Below are positions 13,412 through 33,591 of a stretch of 64,000 nt of DNA, piece after piece; the stretch's first letter is position 1; each line of letters opens with the position of its first letter. The position numbers and the translations under genes are program-made. The stretch comes from Streptomyces parvus (lineage in GTDB: Bacteria > Actinomycetota > Actinomycetes > Streptomycetales > Streptomycetaceae): contig NZ_CP135079.1 of the NCBI RefSeq assembly GCF_032121415.1, positions 4,278,001 to 4,342,000 of the forward strand, in the 5' to 3' direction. The notes under the pieces were generated by a model, which ran no database searches, was not told the DNA's origin, and was given only the letters and a program-made list of their open reading frames with translations.

Positions 13412-15058
13412 TCAGGCCATCAGCTCCGCCTCCATCGCGGCGCGCAGCCGCAGGGTGGAGACCAGGCGTTGGAAGGCCTCCGACCAGTAGCCGCCGGCCC
13501 CCGGTGACGCGCCCTCCTGCTCGTCCTGCGCGGCCGTGAGGACCTCCAGTCGGTCGGCCTCGGCCGGATCCAGACAGCGTTCCGCGAGGCCCATCACCCC
13601 GCTGAAGCTCCACGGATAACTCCCGCCGTCCCGCGCGATGTCGAGCGCGTCGACCACCGCACGCCCGAGCGGCCCGGCCCAGGGGACCGTGCACACCCCG
13701 AGCAGCTGGAACGCCTCCGACAGGCCGTGTTCCGCGATGAACTCGGCGACCCAGGAGGCGCGTTCCCCCTCGCCCAGAACGGCCAGGAGCTTCGAGCGCT
13801 CGGCGATCGAGGCCGTCCCGGGACCGCTCGCCACCGGCTCCGACGGACGCCCGAGCAAGGCCCGGGACCACCGCGGGTTCCGCTGCCGGACCGCCGCCCG
13901 GCACCAGGCGGTGTGCAACTCGTCGGCCCAGTCGTCGGCGACGGGCAGGGCGACGATCTCTTCGGCCGGACGCCCGCCGAACCGCTCCTCCCAGACGCCG
14001 AGCGGGGTGGCCTCCACCAACTGCCCGAGCCACCAGGACCGTTCTCCCCGGCCCGTCGGCGGGACCGCCATGACGCCGTCGCGCTGCATGTCCGCGTCGC
14101 ATTCGTGCGGCGCCTCCACGGAGATGGAAGCGACATCCCCCGTCCGGTCCGGGTGCACGCAGGACAGCGCGCGGGCCGCCATCCGTGCGGCGAGGGCGGA
14201 ACCGGGCAGGGCGGAGAGCAGTTCGGCGGCGGTGGCGCGGACATTGCGGCTGCGGTCGGAGAGGGCCTGCTCCAGGAACGGCTCGTCAAAGCCGCTCAGC
14301 CCCGACCGCAGGGAATCCAGGAACATCAGCCGGTCCTCGGCCCGTTCGGTCGGCCAGGTGGTGGCGAGCAGGGCGAGCGCGGCGGGCGGATCCTGTGCCC
14401 GTACGGCGTCGAGCAGCGCGACCCGCTCCGCGAACAGCCCCTCCTCCCACAGCCGGGCCACCGCATCCGGGTCCGTGAGGTCGGTCTGCGGCGCACCGCT
14501 CGCGGCGCCCCGCAGGGCGAACTTCCAGTCGGGGTTCAGCCCGGCCAGCCACATCCCGCGCGGCCCGGCGAACGCGAGCGCCTGCGGGCGCAGGTCCGTC
14601 CGCGCGCGGGCGGCGTCCAGCAGCGGGGGCAGCAGGGCCGCCGGGGCGCGGAATCCCCTCCTGTTGGCGATGGCCAGCCACTGCGGGATGAGTTCGGTGA
14701 GGTCGGGCGCGGTCCCGCGCCGCCCGGCGCCCGAGGGCGCGGAGCGGTCGGCCAGCAGGTGGGCGAGCCGGTGCCGGGCGGCCTCCGGGAGCGCAGGGCG
14801 CGGATCCGGGGCGGCGGGCTCGGGCCGGGCCTCCGGCACGGCGGGCAGCAGGCCGGCCCGCCGCCGCACGGTGTGCAGCGCGGCGGCGTCCAGCAGGGCC
14901 GCGGGGGCATCGGCCGGTCCGGGGTCGCCGCGTGGTGCCGGAGGACGGCGGTCGGTCCCCAGGAGAGCGGAGGTGACCAGCTCCTCCCAGGGGAGGGAGT
15001 CGACGGACGCGGACGCGGACGCGGTGGTGGGTGCGGTGGGGCTGGTCGTGTGAGGCAT
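13412..15058 (-). CDS. DUF5691 family protein, 548 aa
   Basis: ATG start at 15058 with a GGGAGGGGAAAGAG leader. The protein is soluble, Ala/Leu/Arg-rich and mostly helical, with HEAT-like helical pairs in the middle (for example DRSRNVRATAAELLSALPGS around residues 265-290). N-terminal motif LPWEELVTSALLGTDRRPP is typical of DUF5691 proteins that occur beside SWIM and MoxR/VWA genes. No catalytic motif is recognisable. It lies 125 bp downstream of the SWIM gene on the same strand and probably shares its transcript. Role unknown; possibly a scaffold in the MoxR-VWA complex (inference). Confidence 0.8.
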   Translation of the reverse strand: MPHTTSPTAPTTASASASVDSLPWEELVTSALLGTDRRPPAPRGDPGPADAPAALLDAAALHTVRRRAGLLPAVPEARPEPAAPDPRPALPEAARHRLAHLLADRSAPSGAGRRGTAPDLTELIPQWLAIANRRGFRAPAALLPPLLDAARARTDLRPQALAFAGPRGMWLAGLNPDWKFALRGAASGAPQTDLTDPDAVARLWEEGLFAERVALLDAVRAQDPPAALALLATTWPTERAEDRLMFLDSLRSGLSGFDEPFLEQALSDRSRNVRATAAELLSALPGSALAARMAARALSCVHPDRTGDVASISVEAPHECDADMQRDGVMAVPPTGRGERSWWLGQLVEATPLGVWEERFGGRPAEEIVALPVADDWADELHTAWCRAAVRQRNPRWSRALLGRPSEPVASGPGTASIAERSKLLAVLGEGERASWVAEFIAEHGLSEAFQLLGVCTVPWAGPLGRAVVDALDIARDGGSYPWSFSGVMGLAERCLDPAEADRLEVLTAAQDEQEGASPGAGGYWSEAFQRLVSTLRLRAAMEAELMA

Positions 15059-15183
15059 CTCTTTCCCCTCCCGTGGCAGGGATGCGCGGATGTCGGACAG
15101 GAGCAGCGGACGGAAGCAGGGGACAGGGCGGCGGTGGGTGTGGGGCGGAGCGTAGGCCCGGTCTGCCGGCCCACCCGCCCGGG

Positions 15184-16614
15184 TCAGACCAGTCGGACGA
15201 CCGACCCGCCCGTGGCGCCCCCGCCTTCCACCCCCTCACCCGGGTCCCAGGCCGCGAACGGGTCGAAGCCGCGGTGGCCGATCTCGCCGAACACCGTGAC
15301 CGGGCCGCCGCCGGACAGGGCGACGAGCTTCCACAGGCCCGGCCGGGACAGCGCGGCCGGGGCGAGCGGCAGCGCGGATCCGGTGCGGGCGCCGGGGTGG
15401 GCGTCCGCGTGTGCGTCGGCCACCTGCCAGCCGTCCTTGGACGGCACGGGTATGACATCGCGCAGGGTGACCGGCCAGGCGTCCAGCCAGGGGTCGTCCC
15501 GCAGGGCGTTCCCGTAGACGGCCGGCGCGGCCGCTGCGGCGATCCCCGGCGGGGGACCGGCCGCAGCCGTGGCCCCGAACTGCTCGCCCAACTCCGCCCG
15601 GAGCTGCCCGCCGCCCGGATACGGCGTCAGCTCGGCGTCGATCGTCGCCCCCACCGGCAGCGCCTGCGCCGGGGGCCGGCCCGCCGCGCCGAACGAGAGC
15701 AGCAGAGCGGTGCGGCCCGATCCCCGCCCGTACAGCCAGATCCGGCGGGCGACGATCTTGCCGTCCGGGATGTCGTACTGCGCGAGGACCAGCCAGTGGT
15801 CGCGGACCGGGGGGCCTTCGGCGGACAGGGGCAGCCCCACTCTCGTCCGCACGGTCGCGGCCAGCGGATCCGGCAGCCGGTCCCGGCCGAGCCAGGCCGC
15901 GTCCAGCAGATGGAGCAGGCCGCACTCCTCCAGCAACCGGACCGGCCAGCCCGGCCCGGATCCGGTGATCGCGCCCAACTCCCGCACGCGGGCGGCAAGA
16001 CCGGGGGCCTGGGCGTCGACCATACGGGCCGCTGTCTCCTCCCACAGGCCGTACCCCGAGCGGTCGGTCGCGGCCAGTCCGCCGCGCAGCAGATCCGCCA
16101 GACGCTGCTCCAGCTCCTGGGCACCGCCCGTGACCCGCTCCGCGCGGCGCTCCGCCCGCTTTCTGGCGGCGGCCGGGTCGGCGGGGCCCCGCACGCTGCC
16201 GCCGCCCGCCGCGGGACTGCTCGTGCGCGCCGCTCGTGCGCGCCGGCCCGCGAGCCACTCCTCGGCCCAGTCGGCCGGCTCGGCGGACCGGAACGCGGCG
16301 TCGTCGGACGCCCGCAGCAGCAACAGCCCCAGCGCGTGCTTGCACGGGAACTTCCGGCTCGGGCAACTGCACTGGTAGGCAGGGCCCGTGGGGTCGACCA
16401 CCGTCCGATACGGCGTGCTCCCGCTGCCCTTGCACAGGCCCCACACCGCACCCGTCGCGTCGCACCCCGTACCGGACCACGGACCGGCCGCGCCGAGGCG
16501 CGTGCCCGCCTTGCGTGACGCCGTGTCAGGAGCCAGTGCCAGCACCTGTTCCACCGACCAGCGCGCCACCGGGGCACCGGCGGGCGAGGGCTCTCCCCCG
16601 TGAGATAGCTGCAT
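15184..16614 (-). CDS. SWIM zinc-finger protein, 476 aa
   Basis: Start placed at ATG 16614 (MQLSHGGEPS), with a short GGAG upstream; in-frame GTGs on either side make the start uncertain. The SWIM motif is intact: C82-x-C84-x6-C91-x-H93 (CSCPSRKFPCKH), followed by a hydrophobic GLLLL. Residues about 115-155 are basic, and the rest is an alpha/beta region with no known enzyme motif. SWIM domains bind DNA or protein. The E. coli YehQ protein has the same domain and lies next to MoxR and VWA genes (yehL, yehP), as here. Upstream of DUF5691 on the same strand and divergent from the lipoprotein-AAA genes. Confidence 0.88.
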   Translation of the reverse strand: MQLSHGGEPSPAGAPVARWSVEQVLALAPDTASRKAGTRLGAAGPWSGTGCDATGAVWGLCKGSGSTPYRTVVDPTGPAYQCSCPSRKFPCKHALGLLLLRASDDAAFRSAEPADWAEEWLAGRRARAARTSSPAAGGGSVRGPADPAAARKRAERRAERVTGGAQELEQRLADLLRGGLAATDRSGYGLWEETAARMVDAQAPGLAARVRELGAITGSGPGWPVRLLEECGLLHLLDAAWLGRDRLPDPLAATVRTRVGLPLSAEGPPVRDHWLVLAQYDIPDGKIVARRIWLYGRGSGRTALLLSFGAAGRPPAQALPVGATIDAELTPYPGGGQLRAELGEQFGATAAAGPPPGIAAAAAPAVYGNALRDDPWLDAWPVTLRDVIPVPSKDGWQVADAHADAHPGARTGSALPLAPAALSRPGLWKLVALSGGGPVTVFGEIGHRGFDPFAAWDPGEGVEGGGATGGSVVRLV

Positions 16615-16776
16615 GTCTCCGACGGTAGGGGGCGCCACTGACAATCCCCTCGGACCTGCTCCGACCTGCGAAGCCGCGATCCGGGGGAGATTTGACTTTG
16701 CCCTGCCTCTGGGTTTCTCTGCGGTCTCCGCGTACGGAACGGATCCGTGCCCGGGCCGATCCAGGGGGGATCCCAG

Positions 16777-17202
16777 ATGAACCGCACCACCCGCACCACC
16801 CGCGCCCTCGCGGTCGCCGTCCTCGTGCTCGGACTCGGGGCCTGCTCGGCCGAGTCCGTGGACGAGGCGGTCGGCAAGGCGGTCGACAAGACCGTGGACG
16901 AGACCTACGAGGTCACGTACGAGGTCACCGGCACGGGCGTCGACGAGATCACGTACCACGGGGGCGGCGGCGAGGCCATGGAGCCCGAGCTGGAGACCGT
17001 CGCCGAGCCGCCCCTGCCGTGGAAGAAGACCGTCAAGCTGCGCGGCATCATGCCGCCCGCCGTCACGCCGATCGCCCTGGAAGCGGGCGGCGCCGACGTC
17101 ACCTGCTCCATCACCTACCAGGGCAAGGTCATCAAGGAGGCGAAGGGCGAGGGCATGCTCGCGGCGGGCGGCTGCATCGCCGTGTCGCCGATCGTGGGCT
17201 GA
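16777..17202 (+). CDS. MmpS-family lipoprotein, 141 aa
   Basis: ATG start at 16777 behind AGGGGGGA. Signal peptide with lipobox LGAC; mature lipid-modified Cys23. The mature domain carries the pattern of MmpS transport-accessory proteins: YEVTGTGVDEITY, an aromatic LPW followed by Lys residues, and VTCSITYQGKVIKEAKGEG with a second Cys in GGC near the end (likely disulfide pair). MmpS proteins are periplasmic/outer-leaflet partners of RND transporters, but no MmpL gene is in the window. It is embedded between the SWIM and AAA genes; whether it belongs functionally to the cluster is unknown. Confidence 0.75.
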   Translation: MNRTTRTTRALAVAVLVLGLGACSAESVDEAVGKAVDKTVDETYEVTYEVTGTGVDEITYHGGGGEAMEPELETVAEPPLPWKKTVKLRGIMPPAVTPIALEAGGADVTCSITYQGKVIKEAKGEGMLAAGGCIAVSPIVG

Positions 17203-17211
17203 CCGCCGATC

Positions 17212-17235
17212 CGCCCCGGCCCGCCGGCCGGGGCG
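17212..17235 (+). terminator. hairpin terminator after the MmpS-like gene
   Basis: Perfect 10-bp arms CGCCCCGGCC / GGCCGGGGCG with a 4-base loop begin 9 bases after the stop codon. Confidence 0.6.
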
Positions 17236-17267
17236 ACGGGCTTCCGGGGAGGGGCCACGCGCTCGCC

Positions 17268-17298
17268 AACGGGCTCTGACCTGCGGTCAGGGCCCGTT
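17268..17298 (+). promoter_or_regulatory. hairpin/operator-like palindrome upstream of the AAA gene
   Basis: Arms 17268-17281 (AACGGGCTCTGACC) and 17285-17298 (GGTCAGGGCCCGTT) pair over 14 bp with one G-T, loop TGC. The core CTGACC-TGC-GGTCAG is symmetric and lies 59 bases before the ATG of the MoxR-type operon, so it could be a repressor site, an attenuator or a second terminator. Confidence 0.4.
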
Positions 17299-17357
17299 GT
17301 CAGTGGCATGGTGCACGGTGGTGTCCACATCGGGTCGACCGATCTGGAGGGGGAGCC

Positions 17358-18482
17358 ATGACCGTGTCCAACACCACCGCGGCCGTCGAACCGGAGGCCG
17401 GCACCCAGGCGCTGCGCCCGCACGCGGAGGACGCGTTCGCCGACGAGCTGAAGGCGCTCGCGGCCGCCGACGACCGCCCCAGGCCCGCCCGTTGGCGGCT
17501 GTCCCCGTGGGCCGTCGCCACCTACCTGCAGGGCGGGACCCTGCCGGACGGGACGGTGATCACCCCGAAGTACGTGGGCCCGCGCCGCCTGGTCGAGGTG
17601 GCCGTGACCACGCTCGCCACCGACCGGGCGCTGCTCCTGCTCGGCGTCCCCGGCACGGCCAAGACCTGGGTGTCCGAGCACCTCGCCGCCGCCGTCAGCG
17701 GTGACTCGACGCTGCTCGTGCAGGGCACCGCGGGCACGCCCGAGGAAGCCGTCCGCTACGGGTGGAACTACGCCCAGCTGCTGGCCCACGGCCCCAGCCG
17801 TGAAGCCCTGGTGCCCAGTCCGCTGATGCGGGCCATGTCCGAGGGCATGACCGCCCGGGTCGAGGAGCTGACCCGCATCCCCGCCGATGTGCAGGACTCG
17901 CTCATCACGATCCTGTCCGAGAAGACGCTCCCCGTCCCCGAGCTGGGGCAGGAGGTCCAGGCCGTCCGCGGGTTCAACCTCATCGCCACGGCCAACGACC
18001 GGGACCGCGGCGTCAACGAGCTGTCCAGCGCCCTGCGCCGCCGGTTCAACACCGTGGTGCTGCCCCTGCCCGAGACCCCGGACGCCGAGGTCGACATCGT
18101 GTCCCGGCGCGTCGACCAGATCGGCCGCTCGCTCGACCTGCCCGCCTCCCCGGAAGGTCTGACCGAGATCCGGCGGGTGGTGACGGTCTTCCGCGAACTG
18201 CGCGACGGGGTGACCACCGATGGGCGCACCAAGCTCAAGTCCCCCTCCGGCACGCTCTCCACCGCCGAGGCGATCTCCGTCGTCACAGGCGGCCTCGCGC
18301 TCGCCGCCCATTTCGGCGACGGCGTTCTGCGCCCCGGCGACATCGCGGCCGGCATCCTCGGCGCGGTCGTCCGGGACCCCGCGGCGGACCGGGTGGTCTG
18401 GCAGGAGTATCTGGAGACCGTGGTCCGCGAGCGGGACGGCTGGAAGGACTTCTACCGCGCCTGCCGCGAGGTATCCGCATGA
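17358..18482 (+). CDS. MoxR-type AAA+ ATPase (YehL-like), 374 aa
   Basis: ATG start preceded by GGAGGGGGAGCC. Residues about 45-90 form an N-terminal helical segment; Walker A is GVPGTAKT (96-103); a Walker B/GAFTR-like region carries VEELTRIPADVQDSLITILSEK; sensor 1 is LIATAND; and the arginine finger segment is ALRRRF. C-terminal lid about 255-370. This composition fits the MoxR branch of AAA+ proteins, specifically the YehL-like group that pairs with a VWA protein. MoxR proteins are thought to remodel or activate protein complexes. The next gene overlaps by 4 bases, and a third also overlaps, giving a tightly coupled three-gene operon. Confidence 0.9.
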   Translation: MTVSNTTAAVEPEAGTQALRPHAEDAFADELKALAAADDRPRPARWRLSPWAVATYLQGGTLPDGTVITPKYVGPRRLVEVAVTTLATDRALLLLGVPGTAKTWVSEHLAAAVSGDSTLLVQGTAGTPEEAVRYGWNYAQLLAHGPSREALVPSPLMRAMSEGMTARVEELTRIPADVQDSLITILSEKTLPVPELGQEVQAVRGFNLIATANDRDRGVNELSSALRRRFNTVVLPLPETPDAEVDIVSRRVDQIGRSLDLPASPEGLTEIRRVVTVFRELRDGVTTDGRTKLKSPSGTLSTAEAISVVTGGLALAAHFGDGVLRPGDIAAGILGAVVRDPAADRVVWQEYLETVVRERDGWKDFYRACREVSA

Positions 18483-20890
18483 GCGGCGCCGCCGTGACAC
18501 CGCGCCGTACCGCGAACGGGCCGGCCGCCGGGCCCTGGCTCCTGGGGGTGCGGCATCACGGCCCCGGGTCGGCCCGCGCGGTCCTCGCCGCGCTCCGGGC
18601 GGCCCGCCCGGCCGCCGTCCTCATCGAGGGGCCGCCCGAGGGCGACGCGCTGGTGCCCCTGGCCGCAGACCCGCGGATGCGTCCGCCCGTCGCGCTGCTC
18701 GCGCATGCCGTGGACGATCCGGGGCGGGCCTCCTTCTGGCCGATGGCCGCGTTCTCGCCCGAGTGGGTGGCCATCCGCTGGGCCCTCGACCACGACGTCC
18801 CCGTCCGCTTCATCGACCTGCCCGCCGCCCACTCCCTCGCGCTCAAGGAACCCGCGCTCAACGAGCCTGGGCGGGGACCGGAACGCGCAGCCGAAGAGGA
18901 GGAGGTCACACCGGTCGTCGACCCGATCCGGGTGCTCGCCGAGACCGCCGGATACGACGATCCCGAGCGCTGGTGGGAGGACGTCGTCGAACACCGGTCA
19001 CCCACGGGAGGGAGTGATACCGGAGCGACCGACGGCGACGGCACACCCCCCGAGGGCCCGTCCGGCGACGCCCTCGCGCCGTTCGGCGCGCTGGCGGAGG
19101 CCATGGGCGCGCTCCGCGAGGCGTACGGCGACGGCGGCCAGCCGCGTGACGCGGTGCGTGAGGCGTACATGCGGATCCAACTGCGTACCGCACGCAAGGA
19201 GTTCGGGGACGGCTTCGCCGTCGTCTGCGGCGCCTGGCACGTCCCCGCTCTGGCCGCGCGCACCACCCTCGCCGCCGACCGCGCCCTGCTCAAGGGCCTC
19301 CCGAAGGTCAGGACGGATCTGACCTGGGTGCCGTGGACCCACCGCCGGCTCGCCCGGCAGAGCGGATACGGGGCCGGGATCGACTCGCCCGGCTGGTACG
19401 GGCACCTCTTCGAGGCGGCCGACCGGCCGATCGAACGCTGGATGACCAAGGTCGCCGGACTGCTGCGCGACGAGGACCGGTTCGTCTCGACCGCCCATGT
19501 CATCGAGGCCGTCCGGCTCGCCGAGACCCTCGCCGCGCTCCGGGGCCGCCCGCTGGCCGGCCTGGGCGAGACGACCGACGCCGTACGGGCCGTCATGTGC
19601 GAGGGGTCCGACGTCCCGCTCGCCCTCGTCCGGGACCGGCTGATCGTCGGCGAGAGCCTCGGGGAGGTGCCGGACACCGCCCCCGCCGTCCCGCTCCAAC
19701 GGGACCTGACCCGCAGCCAGCGCACCCTCCGGCTCAAGCCGGAGGCTTCGGAACGCGAGCTGGACCTCGACCTGCGCAAGGAGACCGACGCCGCCCGCAG
19801 CCGCCTCCTGCACCGGTTGCGCCTCCTCGACGTCGGCTGGGGCGACCCGGTGGCGGGGCGCGGCGGCACCGGCACCTTCCGGGAGAGCTGGCGGCTCGGC
19901 TGGGAACCGGAACTGCACGTCCGGGTCGCGGAGGCGGGCGTATGGGGCACGACCGTGCTCACCGCCGCCACCGCGAAGGCCGCGTCGCAGGCCGTGGCAG
20001 CGACCGCGCTGTCCGATGTCACCGCACTCGCCGAGCACTGCCTCCTGGCGGGACTGCCCGACGCGCTGCCCGTCGTGATGAAGGCCCTCGCCGACCGGGC
20101 CGCTCTCGACGCGGACGTCGGCCACCTAGCGGACGCGCTGCCCGCCCTGGCCCGCTCCCTGCGGTACGGGGACGTGCGCTCCACGGACACGGCGGCGCTC
20201 GCGGAGGTCGCCGCCGGACTCGCCGAGCGGATCTGCGTCGGCCTGCCGCCCGCCTGCACCGGCCTCGACCCGGACGGCGCCGAGGCGCTGCGCGGTCAGG
20301 TGGAGGCGGTGCACGGCGCGATCGGCCTGCTGGACACCGGGGCGGAGCCGGGCACGGGGCTACGGGGGCGCTGGGACGCCGTCCTGCACAAGCTGGCGTC
20401 ACGGGACGCGGTCGCCGGAGTCATCAGAGGCCGGGCCACCCGGCTCCTCCTGGACGAAGGACGACTGGCGGAGAGCGAGGCGGCCAGGCTGATGGGCCTG
20501 GCCCTCTCGCCCGGAACCCCGCCCGCCGGTGCCGCCGCCTGGATCGAGGGGTTCGTCGGCGGCGCGTCGGGCGGCGGCATGCTGCTGGTCCACGACGAGC
20601 GGCTGCTCGGCCTCGTCGACGCCTGGCTGACCGGTGTCCCCGCCGACCTGTTCACCGATGTGCTGCCGCTGCTGCGCCGTACGTTCTCCGCGTACGAACC
20701 GGGCGTGCGGCGCACCCTCGGCGAGCTGGTCCGGCGCGGTCCCGTCCCCGAGGGCGCCCGCCGCGACGGCGCCGCCCCGGCGACCGGAGGCTTCGGCCCC
20801 GGTCTCGACCCGGCCAGGGCCGACGCGGTCGAACCGGTGCTGCGCCTGCTGCTCGGCCGCCCGGCCGGGCCGGTGGAGGCGGCCGTATGA
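18479..20890 (+). CDS. DUF5682 family protein (YehM-like), 803 aa
   Basis: ATG overlaps the AAA stop codon and the gene's own stop overlaps the VWA start. The N-terminal 260 residues contain GVRHHGPGS (G23-H26), LIEGPPEGD (Glu50) and CGAWH (G251-H254). This GxxH...E...GxxH arrangement resembles that of the EreA/ChaN/TraB fold, so this could be a metal-dependent hydrolase domain (my inference). The remaining 540 residues are helical, Leu/Ala-rich and probably repeat-like. The protein has no signal peptide or membrane segment. It is co-translated with a MoxR ATPase and a VWA protein, so it likely forms a complex with them. Function unknown. Confidence 0.85.
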   Translation: MSGAAVTPRRTANGPAAGPWLLGVRHHGPGSARAVLAALRAARPAAVLIEGPPEGDALVPLAADPRMRPPVALLAHAVDDPGRASFWPMAAFSPEWVAIRWALDHDVPVRFIDLPAAHSLALKEPALNEPGRGPERAAEEEEVTPVVDPIRVLAETAGYDDPERWWEDVVEHRSPTGGSDTGATDGDGTPPEGPSGDALAPFGALAEAMGALREAYGDGGQPRDAVREAYMRIQLRTARKEFGDGFAVVCGAWHVPALAARTTLAADRALLKGLPKVRTDLTWVPWTHRRLARQSGYGAGIDSPGWYGHLFEAADRPIERWMTKVAGLLRDEDRFVSTAHVIEAVRLAETLAALRGRPLAGLGETTDAVRAVMCEGSDVPLALVRDRLIVGESLGEVPDTAPAVPLQRDLTRSQRTLRLKPEASERELDLDLRKETDAARSRLLHRLRLLDVGWGDPVAGRGGTGTFRESWRLGWEPELHVRVAEAGVWGTTVLTAATAKAASQAVAATALSDVTALAEHCLLAGLPDALPVVMKALADRAALDADVGHLADALPALARSLRYGDVRSTDTAALAEVAAGLAERICVGLPPACTGLDPDGAEALRGQVEAVHGAIGLLDTGAEPGTGLRGRWDAVLHKLASRDAVAGVIRGRATRLLLDEGRLAESEAARLMGLALSPGTPPAGAAAWIEGFVGGASGGGMLLVHDERLLGLVDAWLTGVPADLFTDVLPLLRRTFSAYEPGVRRTLGELVRRGPVPEGARRDGAAPATGGFGPGLDPARADAVEPVLRLLLGRPAGPVEAAV

Positions 20891-22206
20891 CGACGACCAG
20901 GACGACCACGAGGACGGATCCGATGAGGCAGACGCCGGAGGAGGCCACGGAAGGGACGACCACGGCCTCGCACACCCCGCCCGACGCCGAACGGCTGCGC
21001 CGCTGGCGGATGGTCCTCGGGGCCGACAGCGCCGACAGCACGGGGTGCGCCCTCACCGGCCAGGACGCGGCGATGGACGGTGCGTTGAACGCGCTGTACG
21101 GCGGGAGCGCCGGGAAGAAGCCCAACGGCCGGGACACCGGAGGCCGTTCGGCGGGGCTCGGCGCGTCGGCGCCCTCCGTCGCCCGCTGGCTCGGCGACAT
21201 CAGGACCTACTTCCCCAGCTCCGTGGTCCAGGTCATGCAGCGCGACGCGATCGACCGGCTCGGCTTGTCGGCCCTGCTCCTGGAGCCGGAGATGCTGGAG
21301 GCGGTCGAGCCGGACGTCCATCTCGTCGGCACCCTGCTCTCGCTCAACAAGGCGATGCCCGAGACGACGAAGGAGACCGCACGCGCCGTCGTCCGCAAGG
21401 TCGTCGAGGACCTGGAGAGGAGGCTGGAGAGCCGCACCAGGGCCACCCTGAGCGGGGCCCTGGACCGTTCGGCGCGGATCAGCCGGCCGCGCCACCGGGA
21501 CATCGACTGGGACCGCACCATCCGGGCCAACCTCAAGAACTACCTGACGCTCCCGGCACCGGACGGCGGGGCGGCGACGGGGGCGACAGGGACGACCGGC
21601 ACGGCAGCGGCGACGACGGGCACGGTCGTGCCGGAACGCCTCATCGGCTACGGCCGCTCCTCCCGGTCCGCCGAGAAGGACATCGTCCTGTGCATCGACC
21701 AGTCGGGCTCGATGGCCGCGTCCGTCGTCTACGCCTCGGTCTTCGCGGCGGTGCTCGCCTCCATGCGCACCCTCTCGACCCGGCTCGTCGTCTTCGACAC
21801 GGCGGTCGTCGACCTCACGGACCAGCTCGACGACCCGGTCGACGTCCTCTTCGGCACCCAGCTCGGCGGCGGCACCGACATCAACCGGGCGCTCGCCTAC
21901 TGCCAGTCGAGGATCACCCGCCCCGCGGACACCGTCGTCGTCCTCATCAGCGACCTCTACGAGGGCGGCATACGCGACGAGATGCTCAAACGGGTCGCCG
22001 CGATGAAGGCGTCCGGTGTGCAGTTCGTGACGCTGCTCGCCCTCTCCGACGAGGGGGCGCCGGCGTACGACCACGAGCACGCGGCGGCGCTCGGAGCGCT
22101 GGGCGCACCCGCGTTCGCCTGTACGCCGGACCTCTTCCCGGACGTCATGGCGGCGGCGATCGAGAAGAGACCACTGCCCATACCGGACAAGGAGTACCAA
22201 CCGTAG
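20887..22206 (+). CDS. VWA-domain protein (YehP-like), 439 aa
   Basis: The ATG at 20887 overlaps the DUF5682 stop (ATGA). N-terminal 230 residues are helical and polar (SVARWLGDIRTYFPSSVVQVMQRDAI), then a Thr/Gly/Ala linker about 220-245, then a VWA domain from about residue 262. The metal-ion-dependent adhesion site is intact: D271-x-S273-x-S275 (DQSGS), Thr in GGGTDIN and Asp in LISDLYEGG. In MoxR-VWA pairs the ATPase acts on, or through, the VWA protein. Last gene of the operon; a hairpin follows about 50 bases downstream. Confidence 0.9.
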   Translation: MTTTRTTTRTDPMRQTPEEATEGTTTASHTPPDAERLRRWRMVLGADSADSTGCALTGQDAAMDGALNALYGGSAGKKPNGRDTGGRSAGLGASAPSVARWLGDIRTYFPSSVVQVMQRDAIDRLGLSALLLEPEMLEAVEPDVHLVGTLLSLNKAMPETTKETARAVVRKVVEDLERRLESRTRATLSGALDRSARISRPRHRDIDWDRTIRANLKNYLTLPAPDGGAATGATGTTGTAAATTGTVVPERLIGYGRSSRSAEKDIVLCIDQSGSMAASVVYASVFAAVLASMRTLSTRLVVFDTAVVDLTDQLDDPVDVLFGTQLGGGTDINRALAYCQSRITRPADTVVVLISDLYEGGIRDEMLKRVAAMKASGVQFVTLLALSDEGAPAYDHEHAAALGALGAPAFACTPDLFPDVMAAAIEKRPLPIPDKEYQP

Positions 22207-31394: not shown

Positions 31395-32051
31395 GTGGCC
31401 TCCCCGCCCACCTCCGCCTCTCCTGCCCGGCTGGTCGTGCTGGTCTCCGGATCCGGTACGAATCTCCAGGCGCTCCTCGACGCCATCGGCGACGACCCCG
31501 AGGGGTACGGGGCGCGGATCGTCGCGGTCGGCGCGGACCGCTGGGGGACCGGTGGTGCGGAGCGCGCGGAGCGGGCCGGAATCCCCACGTTCGTGTGCCG
31601 GGTCAAGGACCACGCGACCCGCGCCGAGTGGGACGAGGCACTCGCCGCAGAGGTCGCCGCGCACCGTCCCGACCTCGTCGTCTCCGCCGGTTTCATGAAG
31701 ATCGTCGGCCCGGCGTTCCTCGCCGCCTTCGGCGGCCGGACCGTCAACACCCACCCCGCCCTGCTGCCCAGCTTCCCCGGCGCCCACGGAGTGCGTGACG
31801 CACTCGCGTACGGCGTCAAGGTCACGGGCTGCACCGTCCACTTCGTCGACGACGGTGTCGACACCGGTCCGATCATCGCGCAGGGCGTGGTCGAGGTGAC
31901 CGAGGAGGACACTCCGGAGGGCGAAGCCGCTCTCCACGAACGCATCAAGGAAGTCGAGCGCTCGCTGCTCGTCGAGGCCGTGGGGCGGATCGCCCGTGAC
32001 GGCCATCGCATTGAGGGACGAAAGGTTCATCTCGGTCATGTCGGTGAATAA
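31395..32051 (+). CDS. purN: phosphoribosylglycinamide formyltransferase 1, 218 aa
   Basis: GTG start at 31395 with AAAGGG about 8 bases upstream; GTG 31377 is a less likely alternative. Single formyltransferase domain with [15 protein letters not shown] (phosphate loop), the catalytic Asn-His-Asp set in [17 protein letters not shown] and [10 protein letters not shown]. Transfers formyl from 10-formyl-THF to GAR, third step of purine synthesis. It overlaps purH by 14 bases, indicating one transcript and translational coupling. Confidence 0.97.
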
Positions 32052-33591
32052 GCCCATCCGCCGCGCCCTGGTCAGTGTCTACGACAAGACAGGGCTCGAA
32101 GACCTCGCCCGCGGTCTGCACGAGGCGGGCGTCGAACTCGTCTCCACCGGCTCCACCGCCGGGAAGATCGCCGCCGCCGGAGTCCCGGTCACCAAGGTCG
32201 AGGAGCTCACCGGCTTCCCCGAGTGCCTGGACGGCCGCGTCAAGACGCTGCACCCCCGCGTCCACGCCGGCATCCTCGCCGACCTCCGTCTCGACGCCCA
32301 CCGCGAACAGCTCGCCGAGCTGGGCGTCGAGCCCTTCGACCTGGTCGTGGTGAACCTCTACCCGTTCAAGGCGACGGTCGCCTCGGGCGCCTCCGACGAC
32401 GAGTGCGTCGAGCAGATCGACATCGGCGGCCCCTCGATGGTCCGCGCCGCCGCCAAGAACCACCCCTCCGTGGCCGTCGTCACGAGCCCCGAGCGGTACG
32501 CGGACGTCCTCGCGGCCGTGAAGGCGGGCGGCTTCGACCTGACCGCCCGCAAGCGGCTGGCCGCCGAGGCGTTCCAGCACACCGCCGCCTACGACGTGGC
32601 CGTCGCCTCCTGGTTCGCGGACGACTACGCGGCCGCCGACGACTCGGGCCTCCCGGAGTTCCTGGGCGACACCTTCGCCCGCAAGAACGTCCTGCGCTAC
32701 GGCGAGAACCCGCACCAGCCCGCCGCGCTCTACACCTCCGGCGACGGCGGTCTCGCCGAGGCCGAGCAGCTGCACGGCAAGGAGATGTCCTACAACAACT
32801 ACACGGACACCGACGCCGCCCGTCGCGCCGCCTACGACCACGCCGAGCCCTGCGTCGCGATCATCAAGCACGCCAACCCGTGCGGGATCGCGATCGGCGC
32901 CGACGTCGCCGAGGCGCACCGCAAGGCGCACGCCTGCGACCCGCTCTCCGCGTTCGGCGGTGTCATCGCCGTCAACCGCCCGGTGACCGTCGAGCTGGCC
33001 GAGCAGGTCGCGGAGATCTTCACCGAGGTCATCGTCGCCCCGGCCTACGAGGACGGCGCCGTGGAGGTGCTGGCCCGCAAGAAGAACATCCGCGTGCTGC
33101 GCGCCCCCGACGCCCCCACCGCCGCCTTCGAGGTCAAGCCGATCGACGGCGGCGCGCTGCTCCAGGTCGCCGACCGCCTCCAGGCCGACGGCGACGACCC
33201 CGCCGGCTGGACGCTCGCCACCGGCGAGGCGCTGACCGAGGCCGAGCTGAAGGAGCTGGCCTTCGCCTGGAAGGCGAGCCGCGCGGTCAAGTCCAACGCG
33301 ATCCTGCTCGCCAAGGACGGCGCCTCGGTCGGCGTCGGCATGGGCCAGGTCAACCGGGTCGACTCCGCCAAGCTCGCCGTCGAGCGGGCGGGCGCTGAGC
33401 GGGCCGCCGGTTCGTACGCCGCCTCCGACGCGTTCTTCCCGTTCCCCGACGGCCTGGAGATCCTCACGGCCGCCGGTATCAAGGCCGTCGTCCAGCCGGG
33501 CGGATCCGTCCGCGACGAGCTGGTGATCGAGGCCGCGCAGAAGGCCGGCGTGACCATGTACTTCACGGGCACGCGCCACTTCTTCCACTGA
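32038..33591 (+). CDS. purH: bifunctional AICAR formyltransferase/IMP cyclohydrolase, 517 aa
   Basis: ATG at 32038 inside the end of purN; GTG 32044 is also possible. N-terminal MGS-like IMP cyclohydrolase domain (about 8-155; [31 protein letters not shown]) and C-terminal AICAR transformylase domain (about 160-517) with [31 protein letters not shown] and the terminal [10 protein letters not shown]. Last two steps of IMP synthesis. Standard length. A terminator hairpin follows. Confidence 0.98.

Follow-up and report, generated by a model that had tools for sequence, protein, structure and literature searches.

A conserved MoxR, DUF5682, VWA, SWIM and DUF5691 gene set in Streptomyces parvus is probably a previously undescribed DNA-damage-response machine

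What is the purpose of a gene cluster whose most characteristic members have yet to receive a proper name? The question is raised by a 64,000-nucleotide stretch of the Streptomyces parvus chromosome (contig NZ_CP135079.1, positions 4,278,001 to 4,342,000; hereafter the window), in which a MoxR-type AAA+ ATPase, a DUF5682 protein and a VWA protein are encoded on one strand and a SWIM zinc-finger protein and a DUF5691 protein on the other. DUF5682 and DUF5691 are named in no paper of the open-access literature searched, a search that may have missed published work on yehLMPQ of Escherichia coli. An earlier reading of the sequence (the original prediction) saw here an active yehLMPQ-like complex conserved across phyla and mentioned metal insertion and biological conflict as possible roles. 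We propose that the five-gene set is probably a previously undescribed DNA-damage-response machine, because both of its halves share a promoter signal with recA and other DNA-repair genes. The features, in window coordinates, are as follows.

13412..15058, minus strand: DUF5691 protein, 548 residues (Pfam PF18944, E 3.7e-177)
15184..16614, minus strand: SWIM zinc-finger protein, 476 residues (Pfam SWIM, E 3.2e-6)
16622..16644, minus strand: putative promoter of the SWIM-DUF5691 arm, RecA-NDp/PafBC-type, TTGTCAGTG-N8-TACCGT (exact 12/12 match)
16777..17202, plus strand: lipoprotein-like open reading frame (ORF), 141 residues, outside the conserved system (ORF translation)
17297..17319, plus strand: putative promoter of the MoxR-DUF5682-VWA arm, RecA-NDp/PafBC-type, TTGTCAGTG-N8-CACGGT (exact 9-mer)
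17358..18482, plus strand: MoxR-class AAA+ ATPase (YehL family), 374 residues (Pfam AAA_5, E 5.3e-38)
18479..20890, plus strand: DUF5682 protein (YehM family), 803 residues (Pfam PF18934, E 4.7e-294)
20887..22206, plus strand: VWA (CoxE-type) partner of MoxR (YehP family), 439 residues (Pfam VWA_CoxE, E 2.5e-60)

Pfam scans and codon-position composition back these gene calls, and the genes are real and lie where the original prediction had placed them, down to the 4-base overlaps between MoxR and DUF5682 and between DUF5682 and VWA, which can be read from the coordinates.

An important first clue to function is found in the promoters. The 9-mer TTGTCAGTG has two matches in the window, one ahead of each arm and none elsewhere (chance 0.18), and both divergent promoters have the form TTGTCAGTG-N8-(T/C)AnnnT. 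We take TTGTCAGTG to be the -35-like part of the actinobacterial RecA-NDp/PafBC damage promoter, whose consensus was reportedly given by Gamulin in 2004 as TTGTCRGTG-N8-TAnnnT. On the SWIM side the start codon, ATG 16614, lies 7 nucleotides past the promoter -10, and the SWIM mRNA is probably leaderless, starting at this ATG. RecA-NDp is a RecA-independent damage promoter that is found beyond mycobacteria and is recognised by PafBC (PMC8223512), and SCO6735, a Streptomyces gene with a promoter of this kind, is inducible by ultraviolet light (PMC5087735). Counting the window, 26 Streptomycetaceae loci were compared; the exact 9-mer is present on the MoxR side in 25 and on the SWIM side in 23, with one mismatch in the remainder, against a background of 2 matches per 1.05 million strand-bases (0.0008 per 400 bp). 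In one locus (L072), 6.5 kb separate the arms, yet both have an element of their own. The S. parvus genome (7.36 Mb) holds 30 matches to TTGTCAGTG-N8-YAnnnT, compared with 0 for the reversed control, and 2 of the 30 sit on this locus, one per arm. Genes first downstream of the elements include recA, uvrB, polA and gyrA/parC, together with those for a Y-family polymerase, a uracil-DNA glycosylase, a beta clamp and helicases of the RecD2, Lhr and DEAD types. Since the element precedes recA, uvrB, polA and the like, it marks a DNA-damage regulon in this genome, the two arms included. Judged against this consensus, both arms are probably under RecA-NDp/PafBC-type damage promoters, and this regulation of both arms is a new finding here.

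Do the two arms belong to one system? When 84,980 species genomes were searched with a DUF5682 alignment, 80 loci came out, and these belong to Actinomycetota, Deinococcota, Planctomycetota, Pseudomonadota, Bacteroidota, Acidobacteriota, Chloroflexota, Cyanobacteriota, Verrucomicrobiota, Armatimonadota and Desulfobacterota. Hidden Markov models (HMMs) made from the cluster genes were run over all loci, 70 of which had enough flanking sequence. MoxR and VWA were found in 70/70 of these, SWIM in 69/70 and DUF5691 in 68/70; all five genes stand together in 68/70, in only two gene orders. The order SWIM-DUF5691-MoxR-DUF5682-VWA on a single strand accounts for 44 loci, and the arrangement with the SWIM-DUF5691 pair inverted accounts for the other 24, which are Streptomyces and close relatives. 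This sample was picked by DUF5682 similarity, and 396 Actinomycetota genomes served as an independent test. DUF5682 occurs in 24 of them and strong DUF5691 in 21, and all 21 fall within the DUF5682 set, with the two genes on the same contig and a few kb apart (hypergeometric chance about 1e-31 by our own arithmetic, a figure overstated by the relatedness of the genomes). SWIM and DUF5691 living apart from the MoxR-DUF5682-VWA trio, the pattern named beforehand as telling against a single system, is not what the 70 loci and the 396 genomes show. The five-gene set is inherited as one unit over about a dozen bacterial phyla, and the proposed co-occurrence and synteny check thereby upholds the prediction of one widely conserved system. 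Different genes flank the cassette in nearly every genome, so the unit is limited to five genes, and these five are fixed between genomes. Rosetta-stone fusions join DUF5682 to VWA (L009, L010 and other loci of the third architecture described below) and SWIM to DUF5691 (L005, L132), which supports a direct partnership of the fused proteins. Within Streptomyces the system is near-core, being present in 188/199 genomes (94%) with DUF5691 as proxy.

Some genes in or near the cassette can be set aside. The lipoprotein-like ORF between the arms, which had been counted as a member of the cluster, has no Pfam or NCBIfam match, and its homologues among related loci are confined to L076 and L083 (3/26 Streptomycetaceae loci with the window counted); it is incidental and is to be dropped from the cluster. 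Genes lying inside individual cassettes, named by eye as a uracil-DNA glycosylase-like gene and a REP-type transposase (L012), a TnpB-like gene (L064) and a VapBC-like pair (L044), were considered as parts of the system and rejected, as they look like separate insertions. The first of these, read as uracil-DNA glycosylase-like from its translation, is an ORF that separates DUF5682 from VWA in a genome of the Deinococcales (L012:12264-12926).

With this cassette counted, DUF5682 can be found in four architectures. Type 1 is the SWIM-DUF5691-MoxR-DUF5682-VWA set of the window. Type 2, the E. coli yeh type, is DUF4132-MoxR-DUF5682-VWA-SWIM and is also found in Streptomyces (L128) and in gammaproteobacteria (L168-L170), with a further example partial in the gene calls (L129). 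Type 3 combines a DUF4132 domain and a giant protein with MoxR, a fused DUF5682-VWA and a SWIM-like protein (L009, L010, L120-L126). Type 4 comprises a protein without match, VWA, MoxR and DUF5682 (L130, L131); here (L130:8518-15251 and L131) DUF5682 is very divergent, yet it retains the residues that are invariant in the family, and the first protein has no Pfam match. The S. parvus genome holds types 1 and 3. Its type-3 system (L010, chromosome positions 6612000-6631999) encodes a giant 2022-residue protein without Pfam match, MoxR and a DUF5682-VWA fusion, and the gene for the giant protein has a one-mismatch RecA-NDp element 77 bp ahead of it. Profile comparison gave no homology signal between DUF5691 and either DUF4132 or the giant type-3 protein, and a relationship of this sort was rejected. 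At the operon heads of types 2, 3 and 4 in Actinomycetota, the damage-type element was found in 11/13 cases within one mismatch of 12 positions, with operon starts set approximately (in L130 the called start lies 582 bp downstream of the element). An enrichment of a degenerate form ahead of SWIM is seen in 13 type-1 actinobacterial loci from outside Streptomyces (combined P 7e-11, the loci being partly related). By their sequence, damage-type promoters are present on all four architectures in Actinomycetota.

The E. coli cluster offers a second view of regulation. The HMMs recognise YehL (567 bits, MoxR), YehM (843, DUF5682) and YehP (607, VWA), E. coli being in the seed alignments, and PF18934 matches in the E. 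coli control genome. The type-1 SWIM protein and YehQ are distant relatives (hhalign P 0.0008-0.0018). E. coli thus has the MoxR-DUF5682-VWA trio, the distant SWIM protein YehQ and the DUF4132 protein YehI, and has no DUF5691; the window cluster lacks DUF4132 and has DUF5691 in its stead. The description of our cluster as yehLMPQ-like therefore holds for YehL, YehM and YehP, is weak for YehQ, and does not extend to DUF5691. In E. coli K-12, a LexA-type CTG-N10-CAG box (AACTGGATAAAATTACAGGG) stops 7 bases short of yehF, the gene that opens the yeh cluster. The molR of LexA lists is presumably yehF. Published work lists molR among LexA-regulated genes (PMC11039860) and finds yehF up about twofold in the SOS response (PMC11002266), and DUF4132/WGR-type genes of Deinococcus radiodurans react to DdrO depletion (PMC8533742). 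Actinomycetota and E. coli are the only lineages for which damage regulation is supported. In the epidemic ST131 lineage of E. coli, a resistance transposon breaks the DUF4132 genes beside yeh (PMC9334617), which may leave that lineage with an impaired yeh-type system.

What could the subunits do? Walker A of MoxR is intact (GVPGTAKT), while Walker B is a variant, RVEELTR, that reads R[VIL]EELTR in the family, with Glu for Asp wherever the motif is found. The VWA protein has the MIDAS motifs DQSGSM...GGGTD...SDLYEGG, so that a MoxR-class AAA+ protein adjoins a MIDAS-bearing VWA, the Walker B Asp being Glu. The SWIM zinc ligands (CSCPSRKFPCKH in the window protein) fall in a motif, CxCPSRKxPCKH, that is kept in 86/88 homologues. 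The predicted intactness of the catalytic and binding motifs is therefore correct for Walker A, MIDAS and the zinc ligands and wrong for the Walker B Asp. The gene overlap and the DUF5682-VWA fusion suggest a physical complex in which a MoxR hexamer with putative ATPase activity would bind VWA as adaptor. An AlphaFold model of DUF5691 is all alpha (pLDDT 80.5), and its best Foldseek matches are importin/HEAT solenoids, which are weak (E >= 3.5e-3, TM <= 0.26); the model makes DUF5691 a probable HEAT/ARM-like helical scaffold.

DUF5682 is the candidate for the working end of such a machine. It is laid out as a predicted TIKI/TraB/ChaN-like N-terminal domain (about residues 19-300) followed by a long helical C-terminal part. 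Fourteen residues (H26 E50 P88 S93 E95 D113 W166 E171 R213 R227 E228 M231 G251 H254) are invariant in 109/109 sequences covering all four types, the most divergent of which have 22-34% identity to the window protein. The pattern G-x-x-H ... E ... R ... G-x-x-H has the order and rough spacing of E. coli YbaP, a TraB-family protein. The residue order expected of a TIKI-like protein can be traced through H26, E50, R227 and H254, with E95, D113 and E228 also invariant. TIKI enzymes cleave with two His and two Glu (PMC6254334). The match of the TraB profile to DUF5682, in which the second motif is the part that aligns, has P 0.004, compared with 0.11-0.88 for unrelated and reversed profile controls; this kind of test has low power, as TraB against Ere gives P 0.38 by hhalign. 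When 14 diverse members were scanned against Pfam at relaxed thresholds, ChaN of the Tiki superfamily appeared in 2 (best E 0.026), being the only family besides DUF5682 to match more than one member, and TraB in one more (0.041). In the AlphaFold model of DUF5682 (pLDDT 86.3), strands and helices alternate as they should in a TIKI core, and a helical region follows. Searched by sequence against the PDB, neither DUF5682 nor DUF5691 gave anything significant. The similarity is weak, but its separate signals point the same way, and the N-terminal part of DUF5682 is likely a TIKI-type hydrolase domain. We infer an enzyme activity, proteolysis and a substrate for it.

Taken together, we consider it reasonably probable that SWIM, DUF5691, MoxR, DUF5682 and VWA form one DNA-damage-induced AAA+/VWA machine that feeds or controls a hydrolase. 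Damage would turn on both arms at once through the RecA-NDp (PafBC-type) promoters. The MoxR ring and its VWA adaptor would form a remodelling module driven by ATP, comparable to CoxD-CoxE and RavA-ViaA. SWIM and the helical DUF5691 would serve as target-recognition and scaffold subunits, the target probably being DNA or a protein bound to it, and DUF5682 would be a TIKI-like hydrolase, fed or activated by this module. The complex, its DNA target, the proteolytic activity and the direction of control are all putative parts of this scheme. A more specific version, consistent with these findings but in our view fairly unlikely, is a bacterial AAA+-driven protease for DNA-bound proteins, in which a damage-induced MoxR-VWA unfoldase targeted to DNA by SWIM (or by WGR/DUF4132) would pass crosslinked or stalled proteins to DUF5682.

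Several observations weigh against a damage-induced machine. The promoter call for the actinobacterial arms comes from sequence, the -10 of the MoxR-side promoter begins with C rather than T and so is one base off the consensus, and the element also precedes non-repair genes such as an ABC permease, an oxidoreductase and unannotated proteins. In 40 non-actinobacterial loci, the RecA-NDp element is not enriched before SWIM (P 0.84), nor, in other phyla, are LexA, alpha-type LexA, cyanobacterial LexA or DdrO-RDRM elements. LexA boxes were looked for in the other gammaproteobacterial loci, and none was convincing; damage regulation may be lineage-specific. As for the hydrolase, each of the TIKI sequence signals is weak taken alone, and the full-length DUF5682 model has no Foldseek match in the PDB by fold, the helical C-terminal part dominating the comparison.

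How else can the cluster be read? The MoxR-VWA pair could be a maturation chaperone that inserts a metal or cofactor into an enzyme or assembles it, as CoxDE, NorQD and RavA-ViaA do, with DUF5682 as client or binding subunit and damage induction reflecting the need of the client under stress. VWA_CoxE is the best VWA match, the weak MoxR matches include GvpN and MadB, and MoxR-VWA pairs of known role are mostly of this kind (PMC7159879; PMC9976466). However, no client enzyme or metal gene recurs beside the cassette, whose flanks vary, and on this ground metal or enzyme maturation was struck from the candidates and the metal-insertion role of the original prediction finds no support. The promoters, shared with DNA-repair genes, and the strictly invariant, enzyme-like polar residues of DUF5682 also argue against a chaperone, which we regard as unlikely. 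Alternatively, damage or phage might induce the machine so that the DUF5682 hydrolase halts growth or kills the cell, and genes for defence or cell death can likewise stand under damage promoters. A plan of MoxR, VWA and a third component is like that of the VMAP/iSTAND ternary systems (PMC7159879). Several results speak against such a conflict or suicide system: PADLOC gives only a weak match to the IetA ATPase (E 0.013), defence genes are not recurrent among the neighbours, the system is near-core in Streptomyces, and it was found in 1/50,697 phage records, 21/72,556 plasmid records and no viral contig. The five genes are also fixed across genomes, unlike exchangeable effectors. A defence system was rejected on the PADLOC result, the neighbours, the absence from viral contigs and the near-absence from phages; the conflict role suggested earlier is not supported, and we think this explanation quite unlikely. 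It is very unlikely, lastly, that the promoters are incidental, with the five genes forming one unit of general housekeeping or envelope function and the element being a common sigma-A variant in Streptomyces. The non-repair members of the regulon would fit this, but the low number of elements (30 in 7.36 Mb, with 0 for the reversed control) and the position of many of them ahead of DNA-metabolism genes would not, and neither would the 2 of 30 on this locus or the recurrence of the element on four architectures that differ in content and location.

A damage-induced machine would matter in several ways. Placement in the damage response makes an unannotated cluster a testable repair or stress machine. 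As the trio is present in E. coli K-12, a first role is suggested for yehLMPQ, and TIKI-type hydrolases gain a possible AAA+ partner. Should the protease for DNA-bound proteins prove true, bacteria of about a dozen phyla would have a functional equivalent of the eukaryotic p97-SPRTN pathway for DNA-protein crosslinks. The genomic evidence for a RecA-NDp/PafBC-type regulon in Streptomyces also bears on a point left open by work in S. venezuelae, where the mycobacterial PafBC motif was reported as seemingly not conserved (PMC9380542).

Other observations were made along the way. A RecA-NDp/PafBC-type regulon of about 30 sites (recA, uvrB, polA, uracil-DNA glycosylase, Lhr and others) can be read in the S. 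parvus genome. The damage promoter is also found ahead of a SAV_6107-like HEPN protein, DUF2277, DUF4253 and a pentapeptide-repeat protein (L140, L142, L144, L147), whose genes are candidates for new damage-response genes. Elsewhere in the window, ARAGORN calls a 101-base tRNA-Leu (aag) at 33332-33432 on the plus strand, within a long predicted ORF (31996-33591); this is probably a false call.

Comparison with known systems places the cluster among several relatives. Members of the TIKI superfamily (TraB/PrgY/GumN, ChaN, Ere esterases and Tiki) share with DUF5682 an N-terminal G-x-x-H, a Glu 24 residues on, an Arg and a later second G-x-x-H, and the strand-helix order of the DUF5682 model is compatible with a TIKI core. 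The likeness is suggestive only, and DUF5682 differs in being much longer, in its helical C-terminal region and in the linkage of its gene to MoxR-VWA at nearly all loci examined. The E. coli yeh cluster (yehF-yehH-yehI-yehL-yehM-yehP-yehQ) is alike in its YehL, YehM and YehP homologues, its SWIM-domain protein and the LexA-like box at its head, whereas DUF4132/WGR-type proteins replace DUF5691 and YehQ is only a distant SWIM relative. The vWA-MoxR ternary conflict systems (VMAP, iSTAND, bpX; Kaur et al. 2020, PMC7159879) likewise place MoxR, VWA and a third protein in one operon; the paper that describes them does not mention SWIM, YehL, YehP, MolR or DUF4132. Scanned against Pfam and PADLOC, the five proteins showed neither the third component of VMAP, iSTAND or bpX nor their variable effector domains, and the bpMoxR match of the window MoxR is below cut-off (22.1 vs 27 bits). 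Unlike these systems, the window system has a fixed SWIM/DUF5691 pair and no variable effectors. RavA-ViaA and CoxD-CoxE (NorQ-NorD) also pair a MoxR-type AAA+ protein with a CoxE-type VWA partner; in contrast to them, the window system has no recurrent client, three more fixed subunits, among them one whose hydrolase-like site is invariant, and putative DNA-damage promoters.

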